Shown in pieces: positions 3,900-64,000 of a stretch of DNA of 64,000 nt. This DNA comes from Rhizophagus irregularis. Its lineage: Eukaryota; Glomeromycota; Glomeromycetes; Glomerales; Glomeraceae. Made by a program: the position numbers and the translations under genes. The notes below the pieces were generated by a model, which did not search any database, was not told the DNA's origin, and saw only the letters and a program-made list of their open reading frames with translations. The stretch spans positions 1,860,001 to 1,924,000 of the forward strand of contig NC_089450.1 of the NCBI RefSeq assembly GCF_026210795.1, written 5' to 3'. The first letter of the stretch is position 1; every line of letters begins with the position of its first letter.

Positions 3900-3985
3900 A
3901 TGTCTAACTGTATATACATGAGATTTCAAAATGGGATGACAATTATAATATATAGCTTTAACTTGTTTTTAATAAATATACAGCT

Positions 3986-4228
3986 AAGGTTGCTGGAGAA
4001 ACTAGGGGGTTTTGGCAAGTTGGTGAAATGCCGAAATAGCAAAACTTTGCTAAAACTATATGAAAGTCTTATTAAAAAGTTAGCGAAACTCTGGAGAAAA
4101 GCGAAACCTGACGAAACTTATTATAAATGCTGAAACTGCTGAAACCTTGCCAAAACTATAATAAACCTATAGTAAAATCTTGGAGAAATTAATCGTAGAA
4201 TTTTGAAGAGGTTTAGGCAGGCAACCTT
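3986..4228. mobile_element. AAGGTTGC-ended miniature transposon, copy B, perfect 10-bp target duplication
   Basis: The ends are AAGGTTGC and GCAACCTT, and the element is flanked on both sides by ATATACAGCT (3976-3985 and 4229-4238), a perfect 10-bp target-site duplication. It is 243 bp and non-coding. The duplication length of 9-11 bp is typical of Mutator-like (MULE) elements, so this is probably a MULE-derived non-autonomous element. The superfamily call is inference; the duplication and inverted ends are seen directly. Confidence 0.8.
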
Positions 4229-4238
4229 ATATACAGCT

Positions 4239-44985: not shown

Positions 44986-45254
44986 TCACGTGATGTATTA
45001 TAAAAGGTTTAATCGGGGGTTTTGTTAATTAACCAGTTAATTAACAATACTATAAATTATATAAATTATATAACTATATAATTTTATAGTTAAAATTGTA
45101 TAGGTTAATTAACACGTTAATTAACCCCGTAAAATTTTATCAATTATAATTATGTTAATTTGAAAATTTTTGATGTGCATAACGTTTTTATAAAAAAATG
45201 ATATAAAAACTCCAGTGTTGAGATTGAGACCTAAAAAAAAAAAAAAAAAAAAAA
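44986..45254 (+). promoter_or_regulatory. Promoter of coiled-coil family member 1: TCACGTGA, paired GTTAATTAAC palindromes, TATA, poly(A) tract
   Basis: Seen in order: TCACGTGA (44986-44993), TATAAAAG (44999-45006), GTTAATTAAC at 45024-45033 and 45036-45045, again at 45104-45113 and 45116-45125, then TATAAAAACTCC (45202-45213) and a 22-base A run (45233-45254). Each palindrome pair is exactly 12 bp apart. The layout recurs before family member 2. Which TATA is used is not known. Confidence 0.75.
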
Positions 45255-45329
45255 TCAAATATTTCTTTTTTTTTACATATTTCTATAAAATCTATACTAT
45301 TTTTTTTAAAAAAAAATATCTCAGTAATC

Positions 45330-45869
45330 ATGCAAAATTCTCCAACCGAATACCCAGAGTACTCTGAATACCATACTCTTGAAGTCACAAACAACTTTAA
45401 TGATTTACCACACGAAAATGAATCTGTTCCTCTCTTAACAAATCCACTACCTCAACGCATTGTCTCGCAACAAAATAATAACTCTTCTATGAACCAAAAC
45501 CTTCAAATCTTTTACAATTCTATTAATACATTTGAAGAAATTATTAATAGACAACTTGAACAAGTTAATGAACTTAAAACGTTATTAAATCAAATGAGTC
45601 AATCTTTTATCACGCATCAACAACAAGCTCCTATGCCTCGTCGTATAAGCCGAAACTATGTCACTAGACCTCATCCTTATTTGAATGAACGTTTAGTTTC
45701 TTCTCGGACCCCAACTATTCGTTCTGCTATGCCAACCTACCGTCATGAATGCTTTACCGAACAACTCGCTTCATCGAACAGTCTCCATCGTCAGCAAACC
45801 AACGTTCCTGCTGAGACAACTGATAATGAAATTTTCCCTTCTGATATTCAGAATTATGAATTTTGGTAA
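45330..45869 (+). CDS. Unrecognised coiled-coil protein family, member 1
   Basis: An intronless 179-aa frame. The N-terminus is PEYSEYHTLEVTNNFNDL and HENESVP; then QQNNN. A predicted coiled coil of about 35 residues follows (NTFEEIINRQLEQVNELKTL and onwards). A basic, conserved block comes next (TRPHPYLNERLVSSRTPTIR), then RHECFTEQLASSNSLH, and the aromatic C-terminus NYEFW. Two further copies are at 49850-50431 and 60503-61042; the strongest identity is in the RPHPYLNER and SRTPTIRS blocks and the C-terminus. There is no signal peptide or membrane segment. I know no family for it; a regulatory or scaffold role is possible but unsupported. Confidence 0.85.
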   Translation: MQNSPTEYPEYSEYHTLEVTNNFNDLPHENESVPLLTNPLPQRIVSQQNNNSSMNQNLQIFYNSINTFEEIINRQLEQVNELKTLLNQMSQSFITHQQQAPMPRRISRNYVTRPHPYLNERLVSSRTPTIRSAMPTYRHECFTEQLASSNSLHRQQTNVPAETTDNEIFPSDIQNYEFW

Positions 45870-47010
45870 ACTTGTAATATAGCTTGTATGCAGTTAGCCT
45901 ATTATACTCCTTTCTTCCAATTTGCAGCCAATTATATGTCATTATAACAAAATACGATCATCTTTAATTTTTTTTTCTTATTTCATATTTCTTTTTATAT
46001 TTATACTATTTATACTTGTATTTTTATACTTGTATTTTTTATATTTTATAGTATTAAATAAAAATTTAGGTTTGTTCAAATTATATTGTCATTATTGTCA
46101 TGTGATTTTTGACTTTGCTAAAAGTTGAAATTCGGTCAGTTGTTTAGTTATTCTTTCGTCATACTTTTCTATAGGTAATGCACAAGTAAATCATTTTACA
46201 GATCAACTTTAGTATATACTGTACAAATCCTGCATAATTACTCATTTTAGGAAAGGCTATAATCAAAGGATTTGACATACATGGATCGGCAATTTCAATA
46301 TTTAATGAACATCACATGAATTTACGAATAACGCATTTGAATTTTTTTTTTTAATTTGAAAGTTCGTATAATTGCTCAAGAAGTTTCTTTTAAAAACTAA
46401 AGAAGTAAACTAAAGAAGTAAAAGACTGGGAATTAATAATATGTCCTTAAAGCTCGGGTAATTTGGGAAATTAAAGAAAGAGTATTGATATTTAACAATG
46501 TTTTCTTTTATTCTTGGAGTAAAGGTGCATTAGTTTCAGGAAATTTTAGACATATTCTTCTCTGCAATATAGTTTTAGTTTACTTTTGATGAATTGAGTT
46601 ATTAAGTAAATTTTCTCTTCCTTTTATGATATGTTATGCAAGATTTTATTTAATAATATATTCTTGTTTACATTTTTTAGATTCTTTGTTTTAGTACATA
46701 CCAGCAAGTGCTTTCTGAGTAGTGATGATTTATTCTAGTTATAGAATATCTTTAACTATCTTTTATTTGTTTAATTAAAACCCTGATTATGCTAATATTA
46801 CACTGATTTTGGTAAATATTATAATATTAGCTAGTTGGCTTACTCGTATCACTTTTTTGATAATATAATGTTCTTTATCTTGTATTTATATAGAATTTTG
46901 TATTTTAAAATTTTTGTTCTTAATATTTATATACCTACTGAAGATATTACTTTTTTCATTCCCTTTTTTTTGGAATTAGTTATTGCTATTCATCAATGAA
47001 CTTTAATTAA
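45870..47010. other. Gene-free AT-rich DNA
   Basis: Downstream region of family member 1. T-rich; open frames such as 45922-46128 are Phe/Ile/Leu-rich artefacts. Nothing else is recognised. Confidence 0.55.
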
Positions 47011-47151
47011 TCAATTAATAAATTGTTCTTCCCTAATGCTCTGGATCAATGGGCGGCCGTGCTTGGAGTAATTCTGAGTATTACGATAGCACTATGTGCT
47101 GGAATAGCTTCTCTCTTTTGGATACTTGGGATATATGAGGAAACATCGTAG
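47011..47151 (+). pseudogene. Fragment encoding one hydrophobic segment
   Basis: A 46-codon frame without ATG reads NALDQWAAVLGVILSITIAL followed by more hydrophobic residues and ends IYEETS-stop. Base composition rises here relative to the surroundings. It may be a last exon or a gene remnant with a transmembrane helix. No partner exon was found. Confidence 0.25.
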
Positions 47152-47679
47152 CTATTGTCTTGATCATTATCACACGACTGCCAGAACGTCCGGTACATAT
47201 TATTGATGCAAGTCATGTAAGTATCACATTCATCAAAGTAGGATTTATTTATTAGTCAATATAGAGGGAATTTATATAATATTTTGGAATTAAATAGTAT
47301 GATCTCTATACTAATTATACTAATGATGGAATTTTAGATGATCTTTAATGCGTAACGAAACAAAAATATTGAATGATTTGAATTGCACGATATTTACTAA
47401 AATATTCCAAAATATATTATGTACGAAATGTATTAAAGAATAATTTAATTTTTGATTTATGATAATTTTATTAGAATGTAAATAAAATCTCTAAAATTTT
47501 ACAAGTTTTATTTAATTATTATACCGATTTTAATTTTTATATTTTAATTGAATTAATCAAATTTAATTTTAAATATTACGTTCTTTTATCACACCTCTTT
47601 TTTCCATAATTTCCTTCAAACAAAATAATTATTATTTAGATTTCAATACAGGCCTTTTTATGGGCAAAATTATGGTCTT

Positions 47680-48045
47680 TCGCGTCTAATGAGCAATTAT
47701 AATTTATGTATAGCGGCCTCTTATTTTGATTTTTAATGGGTAATTTTAATTCATATTCTTATTTGATTTTAATACTTTTTCATGGACAATTTTAATTTAT
47801 GCGTTAGTGATGATCTTTCCATTTGATCTTTAATATTTTTCGTAGGAATTTTATTTATGGTGATGGTCTGATCTCTAATGGGCAATTATAATTCATATAT
47901 AGTAGTCTTCCTATTTGATCTTTAATATTTTTATGAGTAATTTTAATTTATGTATTGCGGCTTTCATATTTTGATCTTTAATACCTACCCTTTCGTGAAT
48001 TTAATTTATATATGATGGTCTTATTATTATTTGATCTTTTGTATT
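47680..48045. repeat. Degenerate minisatellite with TTTGATCTTTAAT core
   Basis: The core (T)TTGATYTTTAAT recurs near 47728, 47825, 47917, 47973 and 48032, with weaker copies at 47685, 47765 and 47870. It alternates with GGGCAATTTTAATTTATG and TAGTGGTCTT-like words. Spacing varies from about 37 to 60 bp. Confidence 0.65.
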
Positions 48046-48222
48046 TTTTTTTGTGGCATGCGATAGTCTTTTCATTTATAATAAATGCAATTTTTTTTTG
48101 GAAAATATCACTTATTATAAAAGTATGAACAATTTAATATTTTACATAGTTGAAAATAAAATGTTTATTTTGTATCAATAATATCAAAATATACAATCAC
48201 CAACCGGATACATATATTATTT

Positions 48223-48525
48223 CTAGTCTAAATTTTCATGTTTTTCTTTTCTTTCCAATTCTTTATTAATCCAATTTTTAATCGCTGTTAATGTTTTATC
48301 ACATTTAGGTATATCAATATTATTGTACTGTACATACGAGATACCATCGATTGATTAAAACCAATATCATCAAGTGAAATATCCCTTATTTCTCGAGCTA
48401 TCCTATATTGATTTGAAACATCAAGGGTTTTCCTATAATCTAAAAATTATTTTAAATTCTTTAAGTATCTTTGATTCTTTGCTTGTAAAAACTCGTGTTC
48501 TTTTAGGTTTCCATTGTTCATTTAA
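48223..48525 (-). pseudogene. Frameshifted gene fragment, possibly a DNA-binding protein
   Basis: Reading the minus strand, three successive frames each look protein-like. The first has WKPKRTRVFTSKESKILKEF, the second YRIAREIRDISLDDIGFNQS, the third DKTLTAIKNWINKELERKEK and then a stop. Two frame changes are needed (near 48440 and 48330), and no intron fits. The basic RTRVFTSKE start and helical middle faintly recall homeodomain or other helix-turn-helix proteins, but no diagnostic WF-N-R motif is present, so the family is unassigned. Confidence 0.45.
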
Positions 48526-48949
48526 TTTATTTAAGCTTTATTTTGATTTATAAACAATGGATAAAATCGTTAAATTTGTTATTTTAACATGCTTCAAAAT
48601 ATTAAAAAAAAGTTAATTTGTCATTTCATTTCGTCATATCTCCCTAAAATTCCTAAAATATCATTATCTTTTCTCACGATCTATCTTTTGAGCGATTAAA
48701 TTATCAAATTACTTGCATTAATAATAGTTTAACAAAAAAAAAAATTCAATTGAAAAAAAAAGTTATTATTTTTTAATCATTTCTCTTATTACATATAATA
48801 TCAGATTTTATAAAATAACTGACAGTGATCTGCATCTTTCTCGTTATTATATAATATACAGTATTTTTTATGAAATATTTGATAAAAATTTATAGTTGAT
48901 TTATTGTCTAACACGTTATAGTTAAAAAGGTGTAAATTTTTGAAGTGTA

Positions 48950-49087
48950 GAATTCCGAAGAATTCGGCATATTCTTTCGGAAAAACACATGATTATGGTT
49001 TAAGCACAAGTCACGGATCAGCCTAAAAGGGTAATTCTCAGAATTCCGAAAAATTCGGATTTTTTTTTCGGGAAAATACTTGATTAT
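48950..49087. repeat. Two 47-bp direct repeats with a GAATTCCGAAGAATTCGG core
   Basis: GAATTCCGAARAATTCGG followed by TTTCGG(A/G)AAAA and TGATTAT occurs at 48950-48996 and 49041-49087. The core is itself palindromic (TTCCGAAGAATTCGGA-like). Confidence 0.6.
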
Positions 49088-49183
49088 ATAGGATAAGAAA
49101 ATTTTTGAAAATTTGTCAAAAAATACTTGATTGATATATGTACATATACAGTAAAATAAATCAATAATTATATTTTGATATTT

Positions 49184-49285
49184 ATGACTTACTTATATAC
49201 GCACGAAGAGAATGATGATGATGATTTTGATGATGATGATCTAGAAGATTTTGAAGGCAAGTGCAGCTCAGATTCCAAATCATAA
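49184..49285 (+). CDS. Tiny acidic open frame
   Basis: 33 codons from ATG to TAA with a (GAT)n-derived tract: HEENDDDDFDDDDLEDFEGK. It could be a small acidic protein, a last exon, or chance translation of a GAT microsatellite. There is no other support. Confidence 0.2.
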   Translation: MTYLYTHEENDDDDFDDDDLEDFEGKCSSDSKS

Positions 49286-49556
49286 TAAATTTGCCCCAAA
49301 ATTTATTAATACGTTTAATGTAGCGATAGTGCCGAACTTAACTAGATACCTGGTCTCCTAGCGTGTGATGGGAGGTTATCTTCGGAAGACGTAGTATAAA
49401 CGAATCGGTATAGAACTTGTGTTATAGGTCCATAAAATAACTTTTTTTCGGGTAATGACTAACCGCCAATCACAATGCAAATAATGTTTTTGAAGTTAAA
49501 AAACCACAATGCTCCATGTTTGTAATACGGATTTTTTTTTATTTTTTTAACTCCGC

Positions 49557-49765
49557 GTTAATTAACCTACGTTCACGTGATTTATTGAAATGCGTTTGAT
49601 CTAACCAAATGAAAATATTAAACAAAGATAACGTGTTACAACTTTTTTAACGAGTTAATTAACAATACCTACCATATAAATTTTATAGGTTAATTAACGA
49701 GTTAATTAACAAAAAATTGAACTGCATATTCTTTTTTATTACCAGAAAAAAGTATATAAACTCCC
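49557..49765 (+). promoter_or_regulatory. Promoter of family member 2: GTTAATTAAC palindromes, TCACGTGA, TATA
   Basis: GTTAATTAAC at 49557-49566, 49654-49663, 49689-49698 and 49701-49710; the last two are 12 bp apart, exactly as in the member 1 promoter. TCACGTGA lies at 49573-49580. TATATAAACTCCC (49753-49765) corresponds to TATAAAAACTCC of member 1. Intervening words (AACAATAC..ATAAATTTTATAG) are also shared, so the promoters are homologous. Confidence 0.75.
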
Positions 49766-49849
49766 GCTGATTAGACTTGAAAAATCAAAAAAAGAAAAAA
49801 AAATTTTTATACTTTTTTTAAAAAAAAATTTAAAAAAAAAATAATAATA

Positions 49850-50431
49850 ATGGAACATACCTACGAAATTTTAAATGGATATCCTGAATACCCTCTTGAA
49901 AATAATAATGAAGTCATAAGTGACTTTATTAATGATTCGCTATGCGAAAACGAATCTGTCCCTCTCCCAACTTACCCACCACCAAAATTTCAAACTCGAT
50001 GCACAATTTCTCAACAAAACAATAACCTTTCTATGTATCAAAAAATTCAAATGGTTGCTAAGACTATTAAGGCATTTGAAGAAAGCATTATTAGACAACT
50101 CGAACAAGTTAATGAACTTAAGGATCAATTAAATCAAATGAACCAATTTTTCATCGCACAACATCAACCACAACGAAAGCCTTCCGTATCTCGTCATATA
50201 TACCGAAATCATGCTCCTAGACCTCATCCTTATTTGAATGAACGTCCTTTGATTTCTTCTCGTACACCAACTATTCGTTCTGCTGCGCCAACTTGCCGTC
50301 ATGAATGTTTTACGACTGAACAACTCATTTCATCGAATAGTTTTCATCAACAACAAGTTAACGTTCCTGTTGAGACAGTTGATAATAATGAAGTTTTCTC
50401 CGCTGGTACTCAAAGCTATGAACTCTGGTAA
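49850..50431 (+). CDS. Unrecognised coiled-coil protein family, member 2
   Basis: An intronless 193-aa frame preceded by an A-rich leader. Features in order: GYPEYPLE, CENESVPLPTYPPP, SQQNNN, a coiled coil (KAFEESIIRQLEQVNELKDQ and onwards), RNHAPRPHPYLNERPLISS, RTPTIRSAAPTCRHECFT, and the C-terminus SYELW. It is 14 residues longer than members 1 and 3, mainly around residues 45-55 and 105-115. The frame is intact and the conserved blocks are preserved while linkers vary, which suggests selection at protein level. Function is unknown; no localisation signal is seen. Confidence 0.85.
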   Translation: MEHTYEILNGYPEYPLENNNEVISDFINDSLCENESVPLPTYPPPKFQTRCTISQQNNNLSMYQKIQMVAKTIKAFEESIIRQLEQVNELKDQLNQMNQFFIAQHQPQRKPSVSRHIYRNHAPRPHPYLNERPLISSRTPTIRSAAPTCRHECFTTEQLISSNSFHQQQVNVPVETVDNNEVFSAGTQSYELW

Positions 50432-51034
50432 AACTCGTAATTACAAGTTTGTCAAACTTGTATGTAGATAGATACTGTTGTTATTATACCAATTATATTA
50501 ATTATATGAACTTTAATTTGATTATAGTCCTTTATTTTTGTTATTCTTATTTTATTTCGTTTTATATTTTCTTGTATTTTATTTTTAAGCATACTTTGTG
50601 ACGTCACATAATAAGCTTTCATATGACATGAATCACATGAGTATAGATGGTACAAATGATCTGTCCCTTTTCTGTATAATAGTTTGATTAGAATAACCAC
50701 ACTTCTAAAGTAAAATAAAATTACTTTTGAGCTTTCGTAATTTCATAATTTCATCCCCATTTGATAAGTTTGTTACTTGGAAATATCAACTTATCGTGTA
50801 TTATGGGAAAATCCCGCAAAGTAAAAACATCTCGATTAAAGGAAAAGTTTTCGAGTTCTTAAAATGTAAGAAGTATTATAACTAATAACTAATAATAAAT
50901 AAAATGTTTGATTGGAATACGGAGAATAAATGCTGCGTCTTTTTGGAAGATGCACGGATCACCATTTTTTCCATATGGAGAAATTATTTCCCTAGATTAA
51001 CTGATATAATTGATATAATGGAAATTTAGTTTTT
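50432..51034. other. Gene-free DNA downstream of family member 2
   Basis: The first 60 bp resemble the 3' flank of member 1 (CTTGTATG..AG..TTATTATAC words), so duplication probably included some 3' sequence. The rest is AT-rich without frames of interest. Confidence 0.4.
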
Positions 51035-51510
51035 TTAAGTAGTGAATTTAACTCCTTCTTTTCTTAGAAATTTACGTATATATCTCTCCGTAAATGCTTC
51101 TGCAGAACAAAGTGTTGTCCTTTCCGGCATAAATCCGGCTACATAATGCAAGCAATCCAAGTACATCATTATATTTGATATAATTATTTACACTAATAAC
51201 ATGGATGTATGTATACCAACGTTAACCAGTAACTACCTTTATCTCTTAAAGTGATGATAAAGTTAAAAATTATGCGTTCTTTCCATGGAAATGCTCTCGG
51301 GTATTTTATAGATTTCTTTACGTAAAAAAGGAATTTACAATTTGATTAAACTGTTTCATCATTTTCGGTAGCCACTTTCTTTTCATGTATAAACTAGGCT
51401 GTCCAAAAATGGTGAAACAAAATATTTAGAGATTATGAGTAGGAAATGGAACGGCAGATCATTCCAAGAAATGTAAGTAACAAAAGGGATGCCATTTTTG
51501 TCTGTACAGT
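51035..51510 (-). pseudogene. Possible gene remnant with several coding-like pieces
   Basis: The clearest piece is a 44-codon frame 51169-51035 (HYVAGFMPERTTLCSAEAFT and YIRKFLRKEGVKFTT-stop). Upstream on the same strand are AFPWKERIIFNFIITLRDK ending at a GGTAGT donor-like site (51243-51300), YMKRKWLPKMMKQFNQIVNS (51310-51395), and a signal-peptide-like MASLLLLTFLGMICRSISYS (51435-51495). I could not join them in frame with good splice sites. They may be exons of an unknown gene or a decayed one. Confidence 0.3.
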
Positions 51511-52431
51511 ATAGATAATGCCAGAGTAACTGTTATATTTTGTTTGATTTTTGTATTTGTAGAGCACATAATATTATATTATGATGGAAGCAATACGGAC
51601 AGAAACAACTGAGTCTCGAAAATATTTTGACTCCTACTTTATTGTTGAGGAAAAATACTGGCCAAGTTGTTACGTACAAATGCAAAAACTTATTTATGTA
51701 ATTAAAACCTTTCGGAAATAAGCGGAACTGATAAGGGTATCGTTCTCGAGGGAAAATGTTTTACTTTCGATGGCATGATTGGCATCAGTTGGTTGATCGT
51801 AACATTTTGTCGCAGTTTTGTCGTTGAAACGCAATTGCAGTCCAGTTGATAATTTTGTACTATTCCTGATAGCTCAGCTATTTTGATTTGGCTTTATACA
51901 GGTTCGTAATATTGCTTAGTTCTTGTTTTTTTTTGTTTCAAAAAACTATGTTTCGTAACTGGTCATTTTTATTTTTTTTTGACAGAATGCTACATAATGT
52001 GAAATGTACATCAGATCAAACGAAAATAAGACAATGTACCCTATGAAGATTACGGCTATCTTTAATATACACTGTGGTCAGTGTGGTAGCTGGTGTTTTG
52101 TCAATGTGACAACCAATAATTTCCGAACAAATTACTTAAGAATTTTCTTAAACACGTGATGAATAATTCAACCGTGACCACAGGTTATAATCTCACAGTT
52201 AGCTATTTTTTTTTATGTTCTAGTCATAGTTAGTTGCAACCCTTTGAATCATAAAGTCATTATTGGCATCAAAGCGTTTTTCTGCTATATTTTATGAAAA
52301 AGAAGGCAGAACGATAATTCCAGTGGAACTGGATTTCGCCAAAATTCCATCGCTACCTTGAAATCTGTTAAATTCTAAGAACGTATTCTTTCTCGGAATA
52401 GTTAGTTGAAAATAATAATGATAATTTAGTA
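51511..52431. other. Intergenic DNA of intermediate composition
   Basis: Less AT-rich than most spacers (for example 51720-51860 and 52060-52200), with scattered short frames but none convincing. CACGTGAT lies at 52154-52161. No RNA gene is recognised. Confidence 0.4.
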
Positions 52432-52615
52432 ATGCCGTTAAGTCAACTTTCACAACGGGAGAAATTTTATATTGATGCCTTGATGGTAAGACAAAACATA
52501 CCTTTTTACAGTTACGTTCACGAAACTAATTCAATTTTGTATATAAATAGAGGTCTTAGGAACAAGAAAAGAAAAGAAAAAAGATGCAAAATCACAAACT
52601 AGTAAAATAGCGTAG
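52432..52615 (+). CDS. Possible small spliced gene, 38 aa
   Basis: Exon 1 (52432-52485) begins MPLSQLSQREKFYIDALM and ends exactly at a consensus GTAAGA donor. A 67-nt intron, of the size usual in this window, ends at AAATAGAG. Exon 2 (52553-52615) reads VLGTRKEKKKDAKSQTSKIA and stops. The product would be a small basic protein, unrecognised. The model is in phase but too short for strong support; exon 1 could also belong to a decayed larger gene. Confidence 0.35.
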
Positions 52616-53382
52616 CACCGGCGTAACTAAAAATATTTATCATGCATCGGCTTATAGTATTCGGTTATGTCCATGAAAAATCATGAAGACTGATCAACTC
52701 AAATCACAGACTATGGCTAACAAGACGAATTACAATATTTACAACACATTTAACAATATATAACAGTATAAGTATACTTTTTTCATTCTACATTCAATCA
52801 AGCTATACTCCAAAGAAATTCGGATTTTTAACCCGGAAAGTGGCCACATATAAGAACAATTCTTCTCATGAAAGATTTAGAAAAAGATTGATCTAACATT
52901 TGTTCGTTTTGGTAGTGAGTGGGGCAGTACTTTTATTCCAATCAATTCTTCGAAGTGTAATTCATTACGAACAGTTAATTCACATTTTATTGTTGAGACA
53001 AACGAAAAAATAAATTTGCCGTTAAAATAGCATAGTTTGTGTTGCTTTATAACGGTAGTATGCTTTTAGAAAGCAAATTCACAAATATATTCTTAAACTA
53101 TTGAAATATTATTTATATTTTTTTGTCGGATATTAGTTATGTATATCTAATATATTATGAATTGTAGTAAGTGTAAATCGGAAATATAACATTACTTATT
53201 TTTTTTTTTTACCTCAGTTGCTAATTCCTGAATTTATGTTGTAGGTTCAAAATTACTTAATCTTGGTCCTTCGTTCACGTTTAATTTTGGATTTTCTTAT
53301 TTGTAACATGCACGCGATTTTTTGCGGAGTTCAGTAGACGAAATTAAAGACAGAAATTAACCAATGAAATCGCTGAATCAAT

Positions 53383-53405
53383 TCACGTGATCCTCCGTAT
53401 AAAAC
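53383..53405 (+). promoter_or_regulatory. TCACGTGA plus TATAAAAC module
   Basis: TCACGTGA at 53383-53390 and TATAAAAC at 53398-53405, with CCAAT at 53361, 43 bp before an ATG at 53448. The same pairing of motif and TATA stands before the Ca2+ ATPase (26816/26839). Confidence 0.6.
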
Positions 53406-53447
53406 GTGAACCTTTTTAACCAACTTGACTTGTTTCTCTACGCTCTA

Positions 53448-53977
53448 ATGGCATCACAAAATATACCTACGCCTGTATGTGACCTGGCCATTTATTTATA
53501 TTTATATTGGACTCCTGCAGCCGATACTTGGAAGAGGGACTTGCAACGAATAGGCTCATTACAATTGTAATCCCCTTAGATAGATTCGTTGCAATAGACT
53601 CGTTCAAAAATTCATTTGTCAATGCCACTACCGTGATTATCTTATAGTTCATATTTCTTAGTGACTAAATTATTCTAAATTTTTTTATAGTTAGATATTT
53701 CAGCGGGATTTCTTCCTATTCTAGTAACACTGAGATTGAAGCCTGGGGTTATATAGGTTGTCTTGAATATTTAGCAAAAGTGGGTGTGCATTTGACATTA
53801 GAAGATCGTGACGACATTCTTGGCAGATATAGAAATCATCTGCATTCAATATTCTCGTCTACATTAACACTTAAAAAAGCAAAAGACAAAGCCTATAAGC
53901 TGAATTATGCAGCGGAACGTTCATTTAAACGCGTAGAAGTTACCTCGTTTTTTAAAAAACTTGATACACTACGTTAA
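53448..53977 (+). CDS. Hypothetical gene, splice structure unresolved
   Basis: A TATA-preceded ATG at 53448 opens MASQNIPTPVCDLAIYLYLY, WTPAADTWKRDLQRIG and closes at 53567-53570. A second convincing block starts after an AG at 53690 and runs to a TAA at 53975-53977. It reads AWGYIGCLEYLAKVGVHLTL, EDRDDILGRYRNHLHSIFSS, then a lysine-rich helix and VEVTSFFKKLDTLR. The segment between them (53571-53690) holds concentric palindromes. Joining in frame needs an unusually short 31-nt intron plus a 73-nt one, so the gene may be disrupted. No family is recognised; both ends look protein-like and the promoter is good. Confidence 0.45.
53541..53594. repeat. Concentric palindromes
   Basis: TTGCAACGAAT (53541-53551) is perfectly inverted at 53584-53594 (ATTCGTTGCAA). 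Between them lies the perfect 14-bp palindrome ATTACAATTGTAAT (53558-53571). This may be an insertion footprint or an RNA hairpin in the candidate gene. Confidence 0.7.
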
Positions 53978-54020
53978 TTAATGTTAATTAATCGTCGTTA
54001 AATCTGTGTATGTATATATA

Positions 54021-55429
54021 TGTTGTGCCTCAGATCGATTCTTGCCTAGATCGAAGCTCACGCACCCCAGATGTGAGGTGCGTGAAGTGAAACATCAATC
54101 ACCTGAGGTGCCTCAGATTCGATCTGAGGCAATTTTTTTTTTAAAAAAAAAAATTTCAATTTAATTTAATTTTATTTTCACCTTTTCTTTAAGGTTGGTA
54201 CCAGTTTTCTTTATTTTATATTTTCTTTTTAGGAACATTATTAACTGTTCCTTTTTTTTCTTACAGGAACTGCTATTTGGAATGGTTATTTTGGATTTTT
54301 TAAGGTAGGTGGACGCTTTATATATATATATATATATCTTGTTTTTCTTTATAGGAATGCCATTAACCATTCCTTCTTCTTTTTTCTTTACAGAAACCTC
54401 CATTTTCTAAAGTAAGTTCAAAATTTTTTTATATATTTTTCATTCTTAGAAATGTTACTAACCATTCTTTCTCTTCCTTTCTTTATAGGAATTGATCAGA
54501 ACACTCATTGCAGTGTCAAGAATTAGTCTGAGAATTATATAATATTATATATGACAATTTTTTATTTTCACAATAAAAAATCTTTGTTTTATATGTATGG
54601 TCAAATGGATATAGATCAAATGGATATATAGTAATAAGAGTTTATGTTGTAGAAAACACAAAAGATTGATATTTGAATAGAAAAAATAATATTGTATTAT
54701 GATTAATAAAAGGATTAGATTTAAAAAGGTAAATTCATAATGATGGTTAAATTAATTTATTGGTTTAATTTAATAGTAGAAGATACATAATTTTTATTAC
54801 AAAATTTCTTAAGTTTAATAAAAAACTAATTTTTTACAATAAACTTTTTGTTCTTCCAACTTTTAAATTAAACCACCTATCACTATTTCAAACAATACAA
54901 ATTAGTATTCCAACCAGTTACTATATGAAAAAAAAGAAAAGAAATGGTTAATAGTGTTCCTAAAAAGAAAAAACATAATGAAAAGACAAAAGAAAGTCCT
55001 TACCTACTATTCTAACTTCCAAATGGTATTCTGAGAAGTTTCTGTAAAAAAAAAGAAGAAATGGTTAATAGCATTTCTATAAAGAAAAACAAAAATATAT
55101 ATAAATAAAAAAGTGTTCACTTATTTTAAAAATCCAGAATAACCATTCCAAATAGTAGTTTCTGTAAAAATAAAAAGGAATATATAGTTAATAATGTTTC
55201 TAAAAAAAAAATATAAAGAAAAGAAAAAATAAAAATAAAGAAAACTGGTATCTATTTTAATAAAAAGATGTAAAAATAAAATAAATTAAATTGAAAATTT
55301 TTTTAAAAAAAAAATTGCTTCAGATTGAATTTGAAACATTTCAGATAATTGATATGCATCTCATATAATGATTTTAATTTAAGATGTGTAAGCTTTAGTC
55401 TGAAACAAAAATCAATCTAAAATACAACA
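54021..55429. mobile_element. 1.4-kb fold-back element with ~500-bp inverted arms
   Basis: The left arm (54021 to about 54520) and right arm (about 54900 to 55429) are inverted copies. Ends are TGTTGTGCCTCAG and, reverse complemented on the right, TGTTGTATTTTAG, both abutting TATATATA. Each arm contains three to four tandem ~90-bp units of the form AGGAATGCCATTAACCATTC followed by a T-rich tract and ACAG. The roughly 380-bp centre has no coding frame. The left arm is GC-richer; the right arm differs mainly by C-to-T and G-to-A changes. Superfamily unknown. Confidence 0.8.
54062..54087. repeat. Small GC-rich hairpin at the left tip of the fold-back element
   Basis: CACGCACC and GGTGCGTG pair around CCAGATGTGA. 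It is nested inside a larger pairing of TGCCTCAGATCGA (54026) with TCGATCTGAGGCA (about 54119-54131). The equivalent tip of the right arm has lost these pairs by transitions. Confidence 0.6.
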
Positions 55430-56510
55430 TATATATATAAATTAATTTATTTGACAGATTGACACAAATGTAACTAAAAGTCTTGCAAATGCCATTAAAA
55501 ATCTTGTGAATGTAAAAGAAAATTTATATAAATCAAAACTGAAGGCATATGCATATAAATATATAACAAATTTGTAGAAAATACAGATGTAAAAGATAAT
55601 CATTTATCCAAATGTTTTAAATAAGAAACAATAATTTTAAAAGAGAACAAAAAATAAGTATAATATTTTTTGTTATTTTTTTTGGTAAAATATTATTATT
55701 TGATAATAAAAATTTGAGTTCTTCTTTTTCTAATTTAATACAAATACATTATTTAAAGTAAATGATAATTTTTATGATATATTAATTAATGCAAATATGA
55801 TAAAAATATTATAGTTTCTTTATAAATAATTGTATCAATTTAAGAGCAAAAAGATGATAATAAAAATAAAATGTAGAAAAAGTTAAAGAAAAATTATATT
55901 TATTTAACTATATAATATCTTCTTTTATTTTTTTTCTAAACCTTGTTTTTGTAATAAATATCAACTAATTTGTTCTTATTATCTCTTTTGAAAATTTATT
56001 ATGTAAAAGAAACAACTTTACTTTATAAATAAGTTATAATAATTGGTTAATAATATTTTGACTATTGCTCATTTTTATTTATATTTTTTTTTTTAGCTTA
56101 ATCAATTGTTTATTATAAATTTATCATTATTTTTAAAAATAAAAGGTGAATTTAGTGATAAGCAGTAGGCTGAGTTAGTTAAAAAAAAATCTAATGCAAT
56201 TTAAAAAACTTATCATTACAAGATTAAGTCTTTTATTATAGCTAAAAAGTAAGAATTGCAAATTAGAAAATAAACTTAGTTTTATATAATGAATTTCTAT
56301 TGACTTTTTCTTTTATTTTAAATAAATTTATTACAAGCTTATAAAAATGATATAAACTTAGAAATTTGGCTATTCTTATATATAATAATAGGTTTTCATA
56401 TATAGAAGTTGATTGAAAAAAATAAAACATTAGGTGGAATAGGTAATAGGATAATTGTATATTATTAAATCATTATTTATTGTACAATATAACAAATTTT
56501 TGTTATAATA
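55430..56510. other. Gene-free AT-rich DNA
   Basis: No protein-like frame, RNA gene or repeat end recognised. Confidence 0.6.
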
Positions 56511-56860
56511 TACAGTCAACTCTCTATAAATGCACCCTCTATAAATGCATACCTCTATAAATGCATCTTTATCTGTCTCAACTATAATGTTAAATGAAAT
56601 GTATGGTTTATATATATAAATATTCTGTAAATGCATCCTTTATAAAAAAAATGTTATATAGTTTACTTATAAAATTTTTGAATTACCTTAATTTTAGATT
56701 AATATCATATAGATTTATATGTATTCTATAAATGCACACCCTTTTTAAATGCATTTTTATATCTGGTAATCATTTTTTATTTTATTATTATAATTTGGAT
56801 GCATTTAAGTTCTTTTAAAATCTACTATAAAATGACTGTTATAAATAAAAGTAAACTGTC
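56511..56860. mobile_element. TACAGTCAAC-ended element with internal tandem repeat
   Basis: The left end TACAGTCAACTCTCTATAAA is followed by three 16-17 bp units of CCTCTATAAATGCA. Further copies of TAAATGCA are scattered to 56810. The right end, reverse complemented, begins GACAGTTTACTTTTATTTAT, a weaker match. The end sequence and TA target fit the pogo/Tc1-like miniature group. Non-coding. Confidence 0.5.
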
Positions 56861-57348
56861 AACTATATCATTCCTTTAATATAAAAAACTTTAAAATTAA
56901 ATGGAAATTTTATGTTTTATGGTAAATTGTGCATCTTTTCATTTATTATACATGTATAATATAAGATTTTCTTTTATTTTAAATTTTGTAAAAAAAAAAG
57001 GTTTCTATTCTTACAACTCAATCCATTAAAATAATAATAATATACTTACTGAACAAGTTGATTGAATTATCAGGTAGATATCTATATAATTATAAGCCAT
57101 ACAAGGTTGCTTTTATATTAACTATAGTAAACTATATTCTTATGATCTAACCAAACTTGTTTTAAATAAATTTAATCTTTCATAAATTATAAAAAATATG
57201 CTTAATGATTTAAAATCAAAATTTCTTTATACTAGAAAACATCTATATATATATTATTAGAATTCAAATATAATAATAATTACTCATATATAAATATATG
57301 TAAAGAAAATTTGTACTTACATATTTTATTTATATTTTCTCAAATATA

Positions 57349-57524
57349 TACAGTCAACCCTTGTTATAATGAATCCTAAGGTCCAGACTTTAACTTCGCT
57401 ATAAGACTATAGTGAAGATTTTAAGAGATTTGATTGGTTAATTCATTATAGTGAGGAAAAATTTATTATAATTGTTTGAAAAATTCACTATATCAAGGGT
57501 TCGCTATATCAAGGTTTAACTGTA
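57349..57524. mobile_element. TACAGT-ended miniature transposon, copy 2
   Basis: The left end TACAGTCAACCCTTGTTATA and the reverse-complemented right end TACAGTTAAACCTTGATATA match, with TA at both edges. The interior repeats TTCRCTATA words. It is 176 bp, in the same family as 35542-35723. Confidence 0.75.
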
Positions 57525-58157
57525 TAACAGATAGAAGTTTAAATCTATCTGATAGAAAAATGTGAAATATATTTTTTTTATTATTTAAAATTATTTAATT
57601 TTTCATTTACATTTTTAGCTTATCATTATCTGAAATCTGCATTAAAAGTGATATGAAATATTTTGATTTTTTATACTAAAAATCTGGAATAATGACATTT
57701 TAACTAACTTTATTTCATTAATAATTACAGGGCTTAATAGAATTCTGGAAAATATATAAATAAGTAAGATCTCAAATTGCTTAGAATTTGCCAAAAAAAT
57801 TGTGTAAAGCTTTTCTTTTTAGATAATATCAGCCAGAAATTTAATTTTCTAATTTAGAAACTGGCTAGTATTATTATAATTCTGACCCTAAAAAAATGTT
57901 TAAAGTTCATAGTAAAAGTTTTTTGACTGGATCTTACCTATTTATGTATTTTTTGGAGTTCTGACTTAATTAACTAACTTCTTAGTTCAGAAATTTGATA
58001 TTATTTGATAATAATAGATTTAGAATTCCTTCTATAATATTGTTAAATAATAAGAAGTTTTAAAAAACATCACTAAAATAATTAAAGAAAATATTAATAA
58101 ATGTAAGTGTTGAATGATTATTATATTTAATATAATAACTATAATTTACTTGAATTA

Positions 58158-58686
58158 CACAGGTCAAAAGTGAAAAATCAGGTATCAATTAGTTCACCAA
58201 TCGGTCACCAATCAGGTAGCTAATTATGACGATTGGTAAAATGATTGGCATTTTCGCTAAATACATCACCAATCAGACAATTTAGAACTTTTGATCCAGT
58301 GATCAGAAAAGGATAAAATATAGCTCATTGGAATCATCTTAACAAGATGAATTTAATGGTAGTGTAGTAAAATCGCATTTTTAGGATTAATAGTTAATAA
58401 AAAATTAAATAAAATATAAATAATATATTTTTATTTTTATATTTTACTTAATTTCCCATCAAGTATTAATCCTAGAAATGCAATTTTACTACCATTAGAT
58501 TCATCTTGTTGAAACGATTCCAATGAGCTATTTTCTGATCACTGGATCAAAAGTTAGAAAACTGTCTGATTGGTGACGGTATTTGACAAAAATACCAATC
58601 AGTCACCAATCAGTCACCAATCAGCTACCCGATTGGTGACCAATTAATGACTGATTGATGCCTGATTTTTCACTTTTCGACCTGTG
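58158..58686. mobile_element. 529-bp inverted-repeat element, TTA target duplication
   Basis: The ends are CACAGGTC and GACCTGTG with TTA directly on both sides (58155-58157 and 58687-58689). The arms stay complementary for roughly 200 bp. Subterminal zones carry repeated CACCAATCAG/CTGATTGGTG words, three in tandem on the right. The 3-bp duplication and repeated subterminal motif resemble CACTA- or PIF/Harbinger-like non-autonomous elements; I cannot choose. The middle (TAGCTCATTGGAATCAT..) is a decayed copy of the 147-bp unit at 422-779. Confidence 0.8.
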
Positions 58687-58726
58687 TTATGAGTTATTAT
58701 TAGGTATATATTATATTATTAATATT

Positions 58727-58943
58727 AAGATTACTTACCTAAATCTCTCCAAAATCCTACAATTAGTTTTTTTAAGATTTTACTATAGTTTTATTATAGT
58801 TTCAGCAAAGTTTGTTAAGTTTAGCTTTTCTCCAGATTTTACCAACTTTTTAATAAAACTTTCATATAATTTTGGCAAAGTTTTGCTATTTCAGCATTTT
58901 GCCAATTTGCTAAAACCTTTAGTTTTTCCAGTACAGCAACCTT
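58727..58943. mobile_element. AAGGTTGC-ended miniature transposon, copy C (inverted)
   Basis: This is the reverse complement of copy B along its whole length: it ends GCAACCTT at 58943 and begins AAGATTAC, a mutated end. Flanking 10-mers TATTAATATT and AATTAGTATC match at 7 of 10 positions. Non-coding, 217 bp. Confidence 0.7.
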
Positions 58944-59117
58944 AATTAGTATCATATGATATTTTAAAAATACACAAATGTATATAGGATAAATAAATTT
59001 TAATACAAATTGGCATTACAAAAAAAGTGCATTCAAATTTTAAATCCTTAAACTTTTACAAAAATAATATAAATAGTTCCATTGGTACAATATGCAATTG
59101 ATTATAAAGTTTTAAGT

Positions 59118-59387
59118 TTATTTAATAAGATCCAATTCTTGAAGATGCTCTGGAATAACTATATATGAATCTTTGTAATACCAAACATTCTAATTCTCTT
59201 TGCATAATTCTTTGAGTTGATCCTGTATGTACTTGCTGTTTGATAAAATTATTGGAATTGCCTTTATGAAAGAATTCTATATATTTTTCATGCTATTCTC
59301 CTTGTAGTAGGCTTGTACTTTGATTGCAAATCCATATTCATATTAGAGAATATCAAGTTCTAAACCTGTTGGATATTCTGATGTAAG
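59118..59387 (-). pseudogene. Pseudogene of a lineage-expanded nuclease-like protein
   Basis: One continuous minus-strand frame with three internal stops. In order it reads YPTGLELDIL-stop, EYGFAIKVQAYYKENSM, then KAIPIILSN, DQLKELCKEN-stop, NVWYYKDSYIVIPEHLQELD and a terminal stop. The spacing of LELDI and an I-x-V-Q element recalls the E/D..E-x-Q core of PD-(D/E)XK-type endonuclease folds, and I believe proteins with this pattern are numerous in Rhizophagus. That recollection needs a search. The N-terminal part is missing. Confidence 0.55.
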
Positions 59388-60502
59388 TTACCATCATTAC
59401 AAATGGTATACATGACTGCCTGTTATTAAAAATTTGAGGTGTGACCGTGTGACCTAATTTCTATTATCTATCCCTATAAAAAAAATTCTGGAAAAATTCT
59501 GATAAATGATCATTTTTCTAGTTTTATTCCGAAGAAACTCAGACACGTGATCATGTTTTTGAAAAATTTTTTATAGGTTAAATCATTCAATAATCTAAAA
59601 AGCGAACAAAACCTAAAAAAAAAGTGAGTTCAAATCTTGATATCCGTATTTTTCTTTTATCACTCATGATACTAGATCCATTGTTGTTTATAAAGGGTAA
59701 ATCTAATTATTCGTGCGCTGGTGTCACAAAGAAGTATGTGAGATCACTCATGGTTATGCGTGAATCGTTAGACGTTAATGATTGATTGATCCTTTTTGGA
59801 AATAACGTAGCGCACATTCGCGTTTGCTTAGGTTGTGAAGTTATCATAATGATGGCTTGCCGTTCTAGATATCATTATCTGAGACTTAAAGCGTGGAGGT
59901 ATCCATAGTTATACTGAGGAATTGAAGAGACGTCGAAACGGCGTCTGACTTTGTAATCAAGGAGGTTAGTATTGTAAGTGTCACGATAGTGGATGCGAGG
60001 ATTACCTGGCTTTCAGGTGATATCATCCATCACATGTATTAAAAAAACAAATTTTTAGTCATGTGATCTTGCATAATAGTTCATGGATTTCGTATTTAAC
60101 TTTTGACATTCCTTTCTTATCCTTTCAATCCTTCCTTTACATCATTTAACCTTACACACTTTTGTACTATCTTAGCAACCATGTTTTTCTACGGATAGTT
60201 TTTCTTTATAATAATAGGCAATTATTGTTGGACAAAGGATACGTCGTCGTTGATTTATTTACATAATTAAATAAAAGGCTATAATTTCATAATTTCTTAA
60301 ATGCAATTTATACGGCACAATAATTTAAATTTTATTAATAATAAGTATAAAATCATATAAATGTAAATATAAATCATATAAATTAGATAAAATGAACGAA
60401 GAATAATCATTCTAAATTGTTGTATAATCAAAACTTATATCTTATATATAATAACTATATCCACTATTTGTATTCAAGTTAAAAAAACTTGTGAAGTTTC
60501 AT
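59388..60502. other. Intergenic DNA with a GC-richer island at 59820-60030
   Basis: The island contains the hairpin AGACGTCGAAACGGCGTCT (59929-59947) and, on the minus strand, a ~45-codon frame with NPRIHYRDTYNTNLLDYKVR ending in stops. It could be a decayed exon. CACGTGAT lies at 59552-59559. No tRNA or rRNA features are found. Confidence 0.35.
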
Positions 60503-61042
60503 TTACCAGAATTCATAATTCTGGGTACCTGAAGGGGAGATTTCATTATTATCAGTTGTCTCAGCAGGAGTGTTATGAAGACTATTCGATGAGGCGAGTT
60601 GATCAATCGTAAAGTATTCATGTTGGTAAGTTGGTGCAGAAGAACGAATAGTTGGCGTACGAGAAGAAACTAAAGGACGTTCATTTAAATAAGGATGAGG
60701 TCTGGAAACATGGTTTCGGTATATACGACGAGGTAAAGGTTGTTGTTGCGCGATAAAAGATTGTTTCATTTGATTTAATTGATTTTTTAGTTCATTAATT
60801 TGTTCAAGTTGTCTATTAACATTTTCTTCAAATGCCTTAATAGAATTAAAAAACCTTTGGAAATTTTGGTATATAGGAACGTTATTATTTTGTTGAGTAA
60901 TTATGCACTGAGTTGGTACCAGTGGTGGGTGTGTTAAGAAAGGAGCAGATTCACTTTCGTGTGGTGGATCATTAATAAAGTTGTTAGTGACTTCTAGAGG
61001 GTATTCGGGATACCCGGTTGAAATCCCGTAAGTATTTGGCAT
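60503..61042 (-). CDS. Unrecognised coiled-coil protein family, member 3
   Basis: An intronless 179-aa frame from the ATG at 61042. The frame stays open 49 codons further upstream, but that part translates the leader (a lysine run from the poly(A) tract), so I chose the start aligned with members 1 and 2. Blocks in order: TGYPEYPLEVTNNFINDPPH, QQNNN, a coiled coil (KAFEENVNRQLEQINELKNQ and onwards), SRPHPYLNERPLVSSRTPTI, HEYFTIDQLASSNS and NYEFW at the end. A 21-base A run on the coding strand (61076-61096) lies 34 nt before the ATG, as in the leaders of the other two. The paired GTTAATTAAC sites of members 1 and 2 are not visible upstream. Confidence 0.85.
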   Translation of the reverse strand: MPNTYGISTGYPEYPLEVTNNFINDPPHESESAPFLTHPPLVPTQCIITQQNNNVPIYQNFQRFFNSIKAFEENVNRQLEQINELKNQLNQMKQSFIAQQQPLPRRIYRNHVSRPHPYLNERPLVSSRTPTIRSSAPTYQHEYFTIDQLASSNSLHNTPAETTDNNEISPSGTQNYEFW

Positions 61043-61062
61043 AATTATTATTAATTGTCTTA

Positions 61063-61096
<34 letters not shown>

Positions 61097-62457
61097 GAAA
61101 AAAACTTTTATGGTATATATATATGTATGTATATATATTGTTCTTTCAAAAATACCAGTTAATATTATATAAATTTCACACAACATCAATGATTTACCAT
61201 CATTTTAAAAAAAACTTTATGGCATATATATACTGTATATTGATTCAAATTATCAGCAATATTACATAATTTTACACAACACCGATTTTCCTTTTTCAGT
61301 TGTACAAAATTCTGATAATTTTAGATCGACATTCTAATAACTAATCTTCGTTGAAGTAACCACCGGAATTACCTATAATGAAGCACACAGTATTGTAAAA
61401 TCTTGAAATTATATCAGGAGATCTTAATTTTTACCAATGGCTGTACGCAGGGGATTTTAATAAGGTTTTAACATCAAATAGCTGTATTCCTTATGAGGGT
61501 TTATTCATATATTTAATTTTAAATTCAACATTTTGCTGAAATAAAAAACCTAAAGAAAAAAATATACTTTTCTAATTACTTTAAATCTAATTTAATTTTC
61601 AAACTCAAATATTAAAATAACTAATCGCCGACTTTTTATTTTTACATTGAAATCATAAATGAATAAATAGTATTATCGTATATCACGGGCTATAGTACCC
61701 CCCCCCTTATGTATAGTACCCCTCAAAAAAGAAATCATTCTAATAATCCAACAAATACCTTAGGTGTGACGACTGTGACGTGTAACAATACTCTAATTAT
61801 TTTATAAGTTTAAACCCCCCTCTATTAATAGTAAAAATTCGCGTAATAGGGGGCGTAATTATGATAATCAAAGAAATTTCCTAATTTCTTGGCGGTGAAA
61901 TCCGCTTAACCCGTTTTGGTTGCCATAATTTGTTAATTTAGTATGATTAATTAGATGATTAGAGCTTCAATACTGAAATTGGAAAATTTGGTCCGAATAC
62001 TCCATTCAATTATAATAGATATGATTACGGTGTCGTCTATTATAAAATTCGGTCTGACCACTGACCGCATCAGCAAACCGTTATGCATTTATTTTTTCGA
62101 ATCCTGAATCTCAAATCCGAAAGCTATGCATGTATAATTCGTTGGACGTCCGCTAGTATTTGTGAACTTTATTTAGACGTTTTCTAATTTTTAGAATGGT
62201 TATAACGAATTAAAAAGTAATCTTATGAATAAAAAAAAAAAATCGATTATCGATTTCTCCTTATATCGCGTGTGTGCCTGGCACAGCGATGAGTTACGGA
62301 TTAGGTTTTGATAATTTAGAATTGATTTTGGAAGATCGGAATTGTTGGAAATAATTTAGGGATTCTGTAGGAATTTAGGTTACGGGTTAGATTTGTAAAT
62401 ACTTTCAGAGATTTTGTTATCCACGTTTAGACTCAATAATTTTACTATTATGCTAGC
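61043..62457. other. Intergenic DNA with C- and G-runs
   Basis: TATAGTACCCC occurs twice near 61690-61722, the first extended to nine Cs. CCCCCCTCTATTA at 61815-61827 can pair with TAATAGGGGG at about 61845-61854. The rest is AT-rich with a few less biased stretches (61900-62160) and no convincing frame. Confidence 0.45.
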
Positions 62458-62560
62458 GCATAAATAATAGTTATTGGGTAGGGGGGTTGAAATATCACCG
62501 AACTGCGAAGCAGTTCGGATGATATTTTAACCCCCCTACCTAATAACTGTGTTATTATGC
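62458..62560. repeat. 103-bp near-perfect hairpin
   Basis: The left arm reads GCATAAATAATAGTTATTGG, GTAGGGGGGTTGAAATATCA, CCGAACTGC. After a 3-base GAA loop the right arm is its complement, with a few mismatches and small insertions. The apex CCGAACTGC-GAA-GCAGTTCGG is perfect. The flank TATTATGCTAGC extends a second small palindrome. Either a tiny transposon or a structured RNA; no target duplication is clear. Confidence 0.8.
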
Positions 62561-63871
62561 AGACGTCCAAGATCATGTTCCATATGAAAAGCATAGTAAA
62601 TGTGTGATAATAATCTATATGACGTAATGCGTCAAAAATATCAAAGATATTTACGCAATGATAGTTTATCTAAAAAATATCAGTATGTTAAAAACAACAT
62701 GATCCTATTTGGCTGCATAATAATAACATTTATTATTTTTAATAAAAGTAATTGCATTTGAAAATACTATTGTTAATATCAGTTCAGAACCAATGAAATA
62801 ATGGAGATACGATCTAATACATATACTAAATACATAATTGATCCGTAATACTAAAATAGAAAATCACATTTTTTAATTTAATTGTCGTACTAAATAAATT
62901 TTTTATTACTAGTGTCAAAAGACAAATTCTTTTATCCCATCGGTAACAGCCACAATTATTAAAGTGAACAAAGTATAAACGATATTTTTTTTTTATTCTT
63001 ATTCTATCTTAAATATTTTCTAATTGATATTTGTGAAGTTATGAAATTTTATGTCATACATTGAAATATATTAAATATCTAATATCTAGTGTTTAGGTGA
63101 TTACGAAGTTAAAAGAGTAATAAAAATGTAATAAAAAATATGGTTACGGTACGATCATTTCACCGACATGAAATTACTGCCGACATGGAAAATTACCTAA
63201 TTTCGTTTTGCCGACTTCAAATTAATTGTGATAATCGGAATTGCTCAAATAATAAAATTTTACTTCCGTCATTTGTAAATTAACGTATAAACGCAAAAGT
63301 TCATTTTGCCAACAACAGATGAATTCCCTAGTCTTTAAAAATCACAACCACAGTATGAGCTAGGGAGAAGATTAAGAAACTTCTAGCTGATAGACAAATG
63401 TCAAATCAATCTGTATAAGAAATCTCATTTATTATAAGTTCATTGTTCAAAATACAACATTTTAAAAACATTTACTGTACGAAAGTATATCTACCCTAAA
63501 TAGAATATAAAGTAAAATACAAATCATTCAACATTATTTTTTTTAATTTAATATATACAATGAATATGTTTAATAATATTTTATAAAATGATTACACAAG
63601 TTATAATACAATAGCAGATAAGCCAATAATATTACCGAACGAGTAAACTTGCATAAGATCTTTAATTTATAATGTAATTAATATCCATTTTGCTTGAGTA
63701 GACGAATACATTATATATTAGAATCATACATATGGCGGTAATAAATATTTTGTATACAACAAAAAGAATATACTTACTTACGATTTCTCTTCCCTATAAA
63801 TGAGAATACATTTTATTGAGCATCTAAAAATTAATCTAATAAGTAATTTTGAAAAAAATTTTATTACTTAC
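62561..63871. other. Gene-free AT-rich DNA
   Basis: No protein-like frame. A pair of CCGACATG(A/G)AAATT repeats stands at about 63161-63190. The right part presumably holds introns or 3' parts of the Myb-like gene that enters from the right edge. Confidence 0.45.
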
Positions 63872-64000
63872 TTTTAATTTTCTTAATAAGTCGGCGATAT
63901 CTTTTTTTACATTCATGAGCGTTCTTTGATCCCAATAAAATTGCTATTTGTTCCCAATCATCATCAAATTCATTCACGTACGAAATAAGGTATTGAATCT
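63872..64000 (-). CDS. Myb/SANT-domain protein, one exon (cut by window edge)
   Basis: The minus-strand frame IQYLISYVNEFDDDWEQIAI, LLGSKNAHECKKRYRRLIKK ends at a GTAAGT donor (63871-63866). Spacing of the tryptophan, IAxxL and C-x-x-RYRxL fits the second and third helices of a Myb/SANT repeat, a DNA- or histone-tail-binding module. A 12-nt exon (AGG)GAAGAGAAATC may follow after a roughly 77-nt intron, but the downstream structure is unclear. The gene's start lies beyond the right edge. Confidence 0.65.

Follow-up and report, generated by a model that had tools for sequence, protein, structure and literature searches.

Within a stretch of 64 kb of Rhizophagus irregularis DNA with a GC content of 26% (hereafter the window), three short open reading frames resemble one another, which raises the question whether they are genuine protein-coding genes, how they came to be present in three copies and what their products might do.

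Three single-exon paralogues and their upstream regions

Copy A (45330..45869, + strand, 179 aa), copy B (49850..50431, + strand, 193 aa) and copy C (60503..61042, - strand, 179 aa) are single-exon open reading frames which are unbroken from ATG to stop. A tblastn search within the window showed that they are paralogues from end to end (59-68% identity, E-values from 4e-47 to 4e-68), in agreement with the three intact members of one family that a sequence-only reading of this DNA had described. In the alignment of the three proteins 92 of the 193 columns are invariant; the copies share ancestry and do not count as three independent tests. No fourth copy was found in the 64-kb window, the next-best tblastn match of any query having an E-value of 0.54 (0.17 without composition correction). 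Copy C has an in-frame ATG further 5' at 61186, but the extra stretch is of low complexity and has no equivalent in A or B, and the start at 61042 was therefore preferred. The word "dispersed", used earlier for the copies, holds insofar as there are three separate loci; it is generous for loci that all lie inside 16 kb, a distance for which local duplication suffices as an explanation. The contrast between intronless copies and split neighbouring genes was borne out, as Med23 and a P-type ATPase are each spread over several open reading frames. Intron-rich genes and a GC content of 26% are compatible with an assignment to Glomeromycotina.

The upstream regions of A and B share a palindrome, GTTAATTAAC, which resembles a homeodomain site. 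It occurs as an exact palindrome eight times in the 64 kb, where 0.36 occurrences are expected and none of 100 shuffles reached eight, and all eight copies are located 149-306 bp 5' of A and B. The array of copy A (45024..45125) consists of the pairs 45024/45036 and 45104/45116 with 2 bp between the members (offsets from the ATG -306, -294, -226, and -214), and the array of copy B (49557..49710) consists of sites at 49557 and 49654 and the pair 49689/49701 (offsets -293, -196, -161, and -149). Three pairs, two in the A array and one in the B array, thus have a spacing of 12 bp. Among the literature matches listed for GTTAATTAAC, none appeared to be work on fungal promoters. A TATA-like box, TATAWAAACTCC, is also common to the two upstream regions, as TATAAAAACTCC in A (45202..45213, + strand) and as TATATAAACTCC in B (49753..49764, + strand). 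The pattern TATA[AT]A{1,2}NCTCC, which was built from these very two copies, is found twice in the window (45202 and 49753), once before each gene. TCACGTGA is present 5' of both A and B as well, yet it occurs nine times in the window and was given no weight. Copy C has no TTAATTAA and one half-site in the 600 bp upstream; upstream of its leader there is neither a palindrome array nor a TATAWAAACTCC box, and its TATA-like boxes mismatch the pattern. Since array and box are absent from C, it is probable that A and B share a common regulation to which C does not belong.

An A-rich leader had been noted for all copies. It is real in each of them but uneven. The leader of A (45233..45329, + strand) is A/T-rich and its first 22 bases are A, and that of C (61043..61098, - strand) is A-rich with a run of 21 A on the coding strand; the window has four A/T runs of at least 15, and two of them are in these leaders. 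In the A-rich leader of B (49785..49849, + strand, the portion which can still be aligned with copy C) the longest run is only 10. Just 5' of copy C lies an imperfect, TATATA-rich direct repeat (61093-61281, with units 61093-61185 and 61203-61281).

The extent of the homology is relevant to the possibility that at least copy C is a retrogene that arose from an mRNA, either spliced or intronless, and lost the parental promoter. The homology between B and C spans the leader from approximately 49785, about 30 bp past the TATA-like box, to the 3' flank at approximately 50585, which is roughly what an mRNA would cover. Outside these limits the two copies are about as similar as unrelated segments; on the upstream side the identity drops to 0.36-0.44, compared to 0.35 (largest value 0.42) for such segments. 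The lack of array and box in C fits the same scenario. However, direct reading did not reveal an A tract where the homology of C ends on its 3' side, and the distances of 4-16 kb between the copies fit local DNA duplication. In addition, A and B, which have kept their upstream elements, are intronless as well; this makes an intronless ancestor probable, and a loss of introns can therefore not be demonstrated. Between A and B the 3' flank is conserved over 84 aligned columns with 75% identity. We consider a retrogene origin unlikely.

Predicted architecture and database comparisons

Five sequence blocks had been presented as fixed. RPHPYLNER and SRTPTIRS are indeed the same in A, B, and C, but the other three vary: PEYPLE is present in B and C and has PEYSEYHTLE as its counterpart in A, the HENES block reads HENES in A, CENES in B, and HESES in C, and RQLEQVNELK of A and B is RQLEQINELK in C. 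The proteins end in NYEFW (A and C) or SYELW (B), which agrees with the aromatic C-terminus described before.

The coiled coil proposed for the centre of the proteins is supported by prediction. AlphaFold2 runs on monomers, using the alignment of the three sequences, predicted a confident helix at residues 62-104 in copy B (43 residues) and at residues 55-99 in copy C (45 residues), in which 39 and 30 residues, respectively, exceed a pLDDT of 90; the mean pLDDT was 57.5 and 58.4, confidence outside the helix was low and nothing was resolved there. In A, B, and C alike, hydrophobic periodicity, determined without a null, was stronger for a repeat of 3.5 residues than for one of 3.6 or 3.67, a heptad periodicity like that of a coiled coil. 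The helix is preceded by an acidic N-terminal part (charge -6 in A, -7 in B, and -5 in C) and followed by a basic block (+6, +5, and +6) and an acidic tail (-5, -5, and -6). A bZIP-type transcription factor was considered and rejected, because the basic block is C-terminal of the helix and the part before the helix is acidic. On direct reading the N-termini are hydrophilic and lack a signal-peptide-like stretch, which makes it unlikely that the proteins are secreted. Each protein contains 0-3 glycine residues.

None of the three proteins had a match at the curated cut-off in Pfam or NCBIfam or a convincing match in PHROGs or PDB, and by these four comparisons the family would count as an orphan family with no known protein domain. 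Weak matches were obtained on the coil with DUF6674 (Pfam, E-value 0.0024, below the cut-off), FcpA (NCBIfam, E-value 0.0025, far under the cut-off), and bicaudal D (PDB, E-value 0.44). Together with the strongly predicted helix, these chance-level matches could be taken to indicate that the proteins belong to a known coiled-coil family, as a lineage-specific branch which has diverged past sequence detection. The matches, however, are to different, unrelated families, are restricted to the coil and do not pass any curated cut-off, and the conserved C-terminal half is left unmatched, which makes such a descent quite unlikely. Searches with a pattern of the whole-length alignment followed by tblastn gave 288 pattern matches in viral contigs and 134 in prokaryotic genomes, and those with a pattern of the C-terminal block gave 25 and 38, respectively; none of these matches was confirmed. 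The lack of viral and prokaryotic relatives is expected for a fungal gene. Four peptide motifs had no match in the literature searched, which carries little weight since protein sequence is seldom printed there, and no account of this family was found.

Genomic surroundings, selection, and codon use

Between 10 and 43 kb the window contains exons of Med23, a P-type ATPase, PRMT5, saccharopine dehydrogenase, DBR1, glyoxalase, TPX2, and Pmp3, and an exon for a Myb-like DNA-binding domain (63867-63998, - strand) is cut by the window end. No RNA family was found in the window at the Rfam gathering score. Inverted repeats are located between the exons listed and also among the copies. An inverted-repeat element at 54094-55353 has arms of about 310-320 bp with 79% identity, which contain a recurring motif around GGAA..ATTAACCATTCC. 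About 100 bp before this element is a tandem GTTAATTAAT GTTAATTAAT (53973-53992), one base different from the palindrome of A and B. A foldback of 607 bp (58117-58723) is 79% self-complementary, and the adjoining segment 58726-58944 has a relative on the opposite strand at 3985-4229. At 62469-62548 there is a near-perfect hairpin of 80 bp (89%). The copies had been assigned to a transposon-rich half of the DNA; several inverted repeats are in line with that description, but no transposon domain was detected in 40 scanned open reading frames and segments, five of which lie within 44-64 kb.

Three intronless copies inside 16 kb with inverted repeats nearby (54094-55353, 58117-58723, and 62469-62548) would also be compatible with A, B, and C encoding a transposon or retroelement protein, or a protein domesticated from one, the copies then being copies of the element. 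A self-comparison of the window (E-value 1e-4) identified no common terminal repeats around the copies, and beyond the leader, the open reading frame and a short 3' part, the only flanking DNA that it showed to be common to any copies was the promoter array which A shares with B. In Pfam, NCBIfam, and PHROGs none of the three proteins matched a transposase, integrase, reverse transcriptase, or Gag family; a transposon or retroelement match, named beforehand as evidence against the family, was thus not encountered. The selection on the protein reported below is also unlike the decay of element copies, and we regard an origin as a mobile element as distinctly improbable.

A pairwise maximum likelihood codon model gave omega values of 0.365 (A-B), 0.294 (A-C), and 0.418 (B-C), all significantly below 1 (likelihood-ratio against omega 1 of 15.9, 19.0, and 11.3, respectively), and the Nei-Gojobori method gave 0.41, 0.34, and 0.44. 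In nucleotide alignments that ignored the reading frame, all 19 gaps (seven for A-B, eight for A-C, and four for B-C) were multiples of three, and the frames contain no stops. These data support the earlier view that A, B, and C evolve as proteins and are real paralogous genes under protein-level selection; a value near 1, which in combination with a lack of transcripts had been put forward as contrary evidence, was not seen. A two-class codon model was modestly ahead of a one-class model (lnL -1243.9 vs. -1247.5), assigning an omega of 0.13 to about half of the codons and values near 0.8 to the remainder. This lends some statistical support to the idea of fixed blocks and free linkers. In the A-C comparison omega was 0.91 over the 40 codons of the coil, where synonymous changes are few, and the coil is no specially conserved part of the protein.

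Synonymous change was found at 19 of the 89 degenerate codons for which the amino acid is common to all three proteins. In simulations under the fitted models 38% of such codons changed and none of 300 runs was as low as observed; with empirical codon frequencies these values were 36% and one of 300 runs. The low synonymous change is spread over all invariant codons, also beyond the blocks; a local tract in which the fixed blocks show additional conservation at synonymous positions was looked for and dismissed (permutation values of 0.92-1.0 with four different window sizes). Relative to 1331 codons taken from 19 exon segments with Pfam support in the window, the family favours TCT, CGT, TAC, and CCT/CCA and shuns ATA and GTA. 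When codons were permuted within amino acids, a difference in codon usage as large was obtained in 0/1000 permutations for A, 0/1000 for B, and 26/1000 for C. The same comparison of control genes with the rest gave 27/500 for Med23, 226/500 for the ATPase, 148/500 for PRMT5, 283/500 for saccharopine dehydrogenase, and 1/500 for glyoxalase. Codon heterogeneity is therefore not special to the family, the glyoxalase exon being equally odd.

With a set of optimal codons of the yeast type, the number of optimal codons was 93 of 173 in A (71.8 expected), 104 of 188 in B (81.5 expected), and 90 of 176 in C (71.5 expected), corresponding to z-values of 3.7, 3.8, and 3.2, compared to -1.5 to 1.8 for the five control genes. 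The expectation was matched for amino acids, and CGT was excluded since it had been chosen after seeing the counts of the family. Pyrimidine-ending codons are generally in excess (z-values of 4.9 in A, 4.1 in B, and 2.7 in C), and a plain third-base preference could yield part of the skew in optimal codons. The lean toward optimal codons and the suppressed synonymous change would together hint at high expression of the family. Decaying pseudogenes or fortuitous open reading frames, which might be suspected from small, low-complexity N/Q/S/P-rich proteins within AT-rich DNA, are largely refuted by the presence of three homologous open frames, omega values below 1, gaps that are all in frame and the skew in optimal codons, and are hardly credible.

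Proposed role and relation to known orphan families

The reading that we prefer, to which we assign a probability of roughly one half, is that A, B, and C form an orphan family of local duplicates whose products are abundant coiled-coil oligomers displaying short motifs, with A and B being switched together via GTTAATTAAC. According to this model, protein-coding genes of the host genome were multiplied through local duplication, and each would encode a mostly disordered protein of about 180-190 residues with a central helix of about 43-45 residues. The helix would most likely pair to form coiled-coil oligomers, which may be homomeric or heteromeric among the paralogues. Such an oligomer could present several Arg/His-rich stretches (RPHPYLNER...SSRTPTIRS) as docking motifs and the aromatic C-terminus (YE-F/L-W) as a second docking motif, and might serve as a scaffold or adaptor, produced in quantity if expression is as high as codon use suggests. 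A putative factor binding to GTTAATTAAC would turn on A and B jointly, and copy C would be driven by a different promoter. A more far-reaching version is doubtful. It holds that the family is lineage-specific and strongly expressed, that the paired GTTAATTAAC sites 12 bp apart are a new fungal control element for A and B, with another element for C, and that the mixture of oligomers is stage-specific.

Domain-less orphan genes, both single and multicopy, are reported to be a major class in Rhizophagus (PMC8647823). A, B, and C resemble the orphan genes assigned to Class B in Rhizophagus irregularis, which have no known protein domain and a low or high copy number, in having no recognised domain, in being multicopy and in lying in sparse, repeat-bearing DNA; Class B, however, is a bin and not a single family as A, B, and C are, and the passages considered here name no coiled-coil family with this sequence. 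The AGL proteins (PMC8786786) form small multigene families of disordered proteins that are said to be specific to arbuscular mycorrhizal fungi. A, B, and C are also a small and mostly disordered family, but where the AGL proteins are secreted and carry Pro/Gly tandem repeats, the three paralogues have a coiled coil, 0-3 glycines and hydrophilic N-termini. Most likely, A, B, and C represent one more family within the large, known class of domain-less orphans and no new kind of system.

Beyond the description of motifs and open reading frames, the difference in promoter between A and B on the one hand and C on the other is the most informative result. If the family holds in related fungi, it would offer a compact, testable set of three paralogues with a promoter contrast and two fixed motifs that may serve as bait, and one domain-less fungal orphan entry would gain a predicted architecture.
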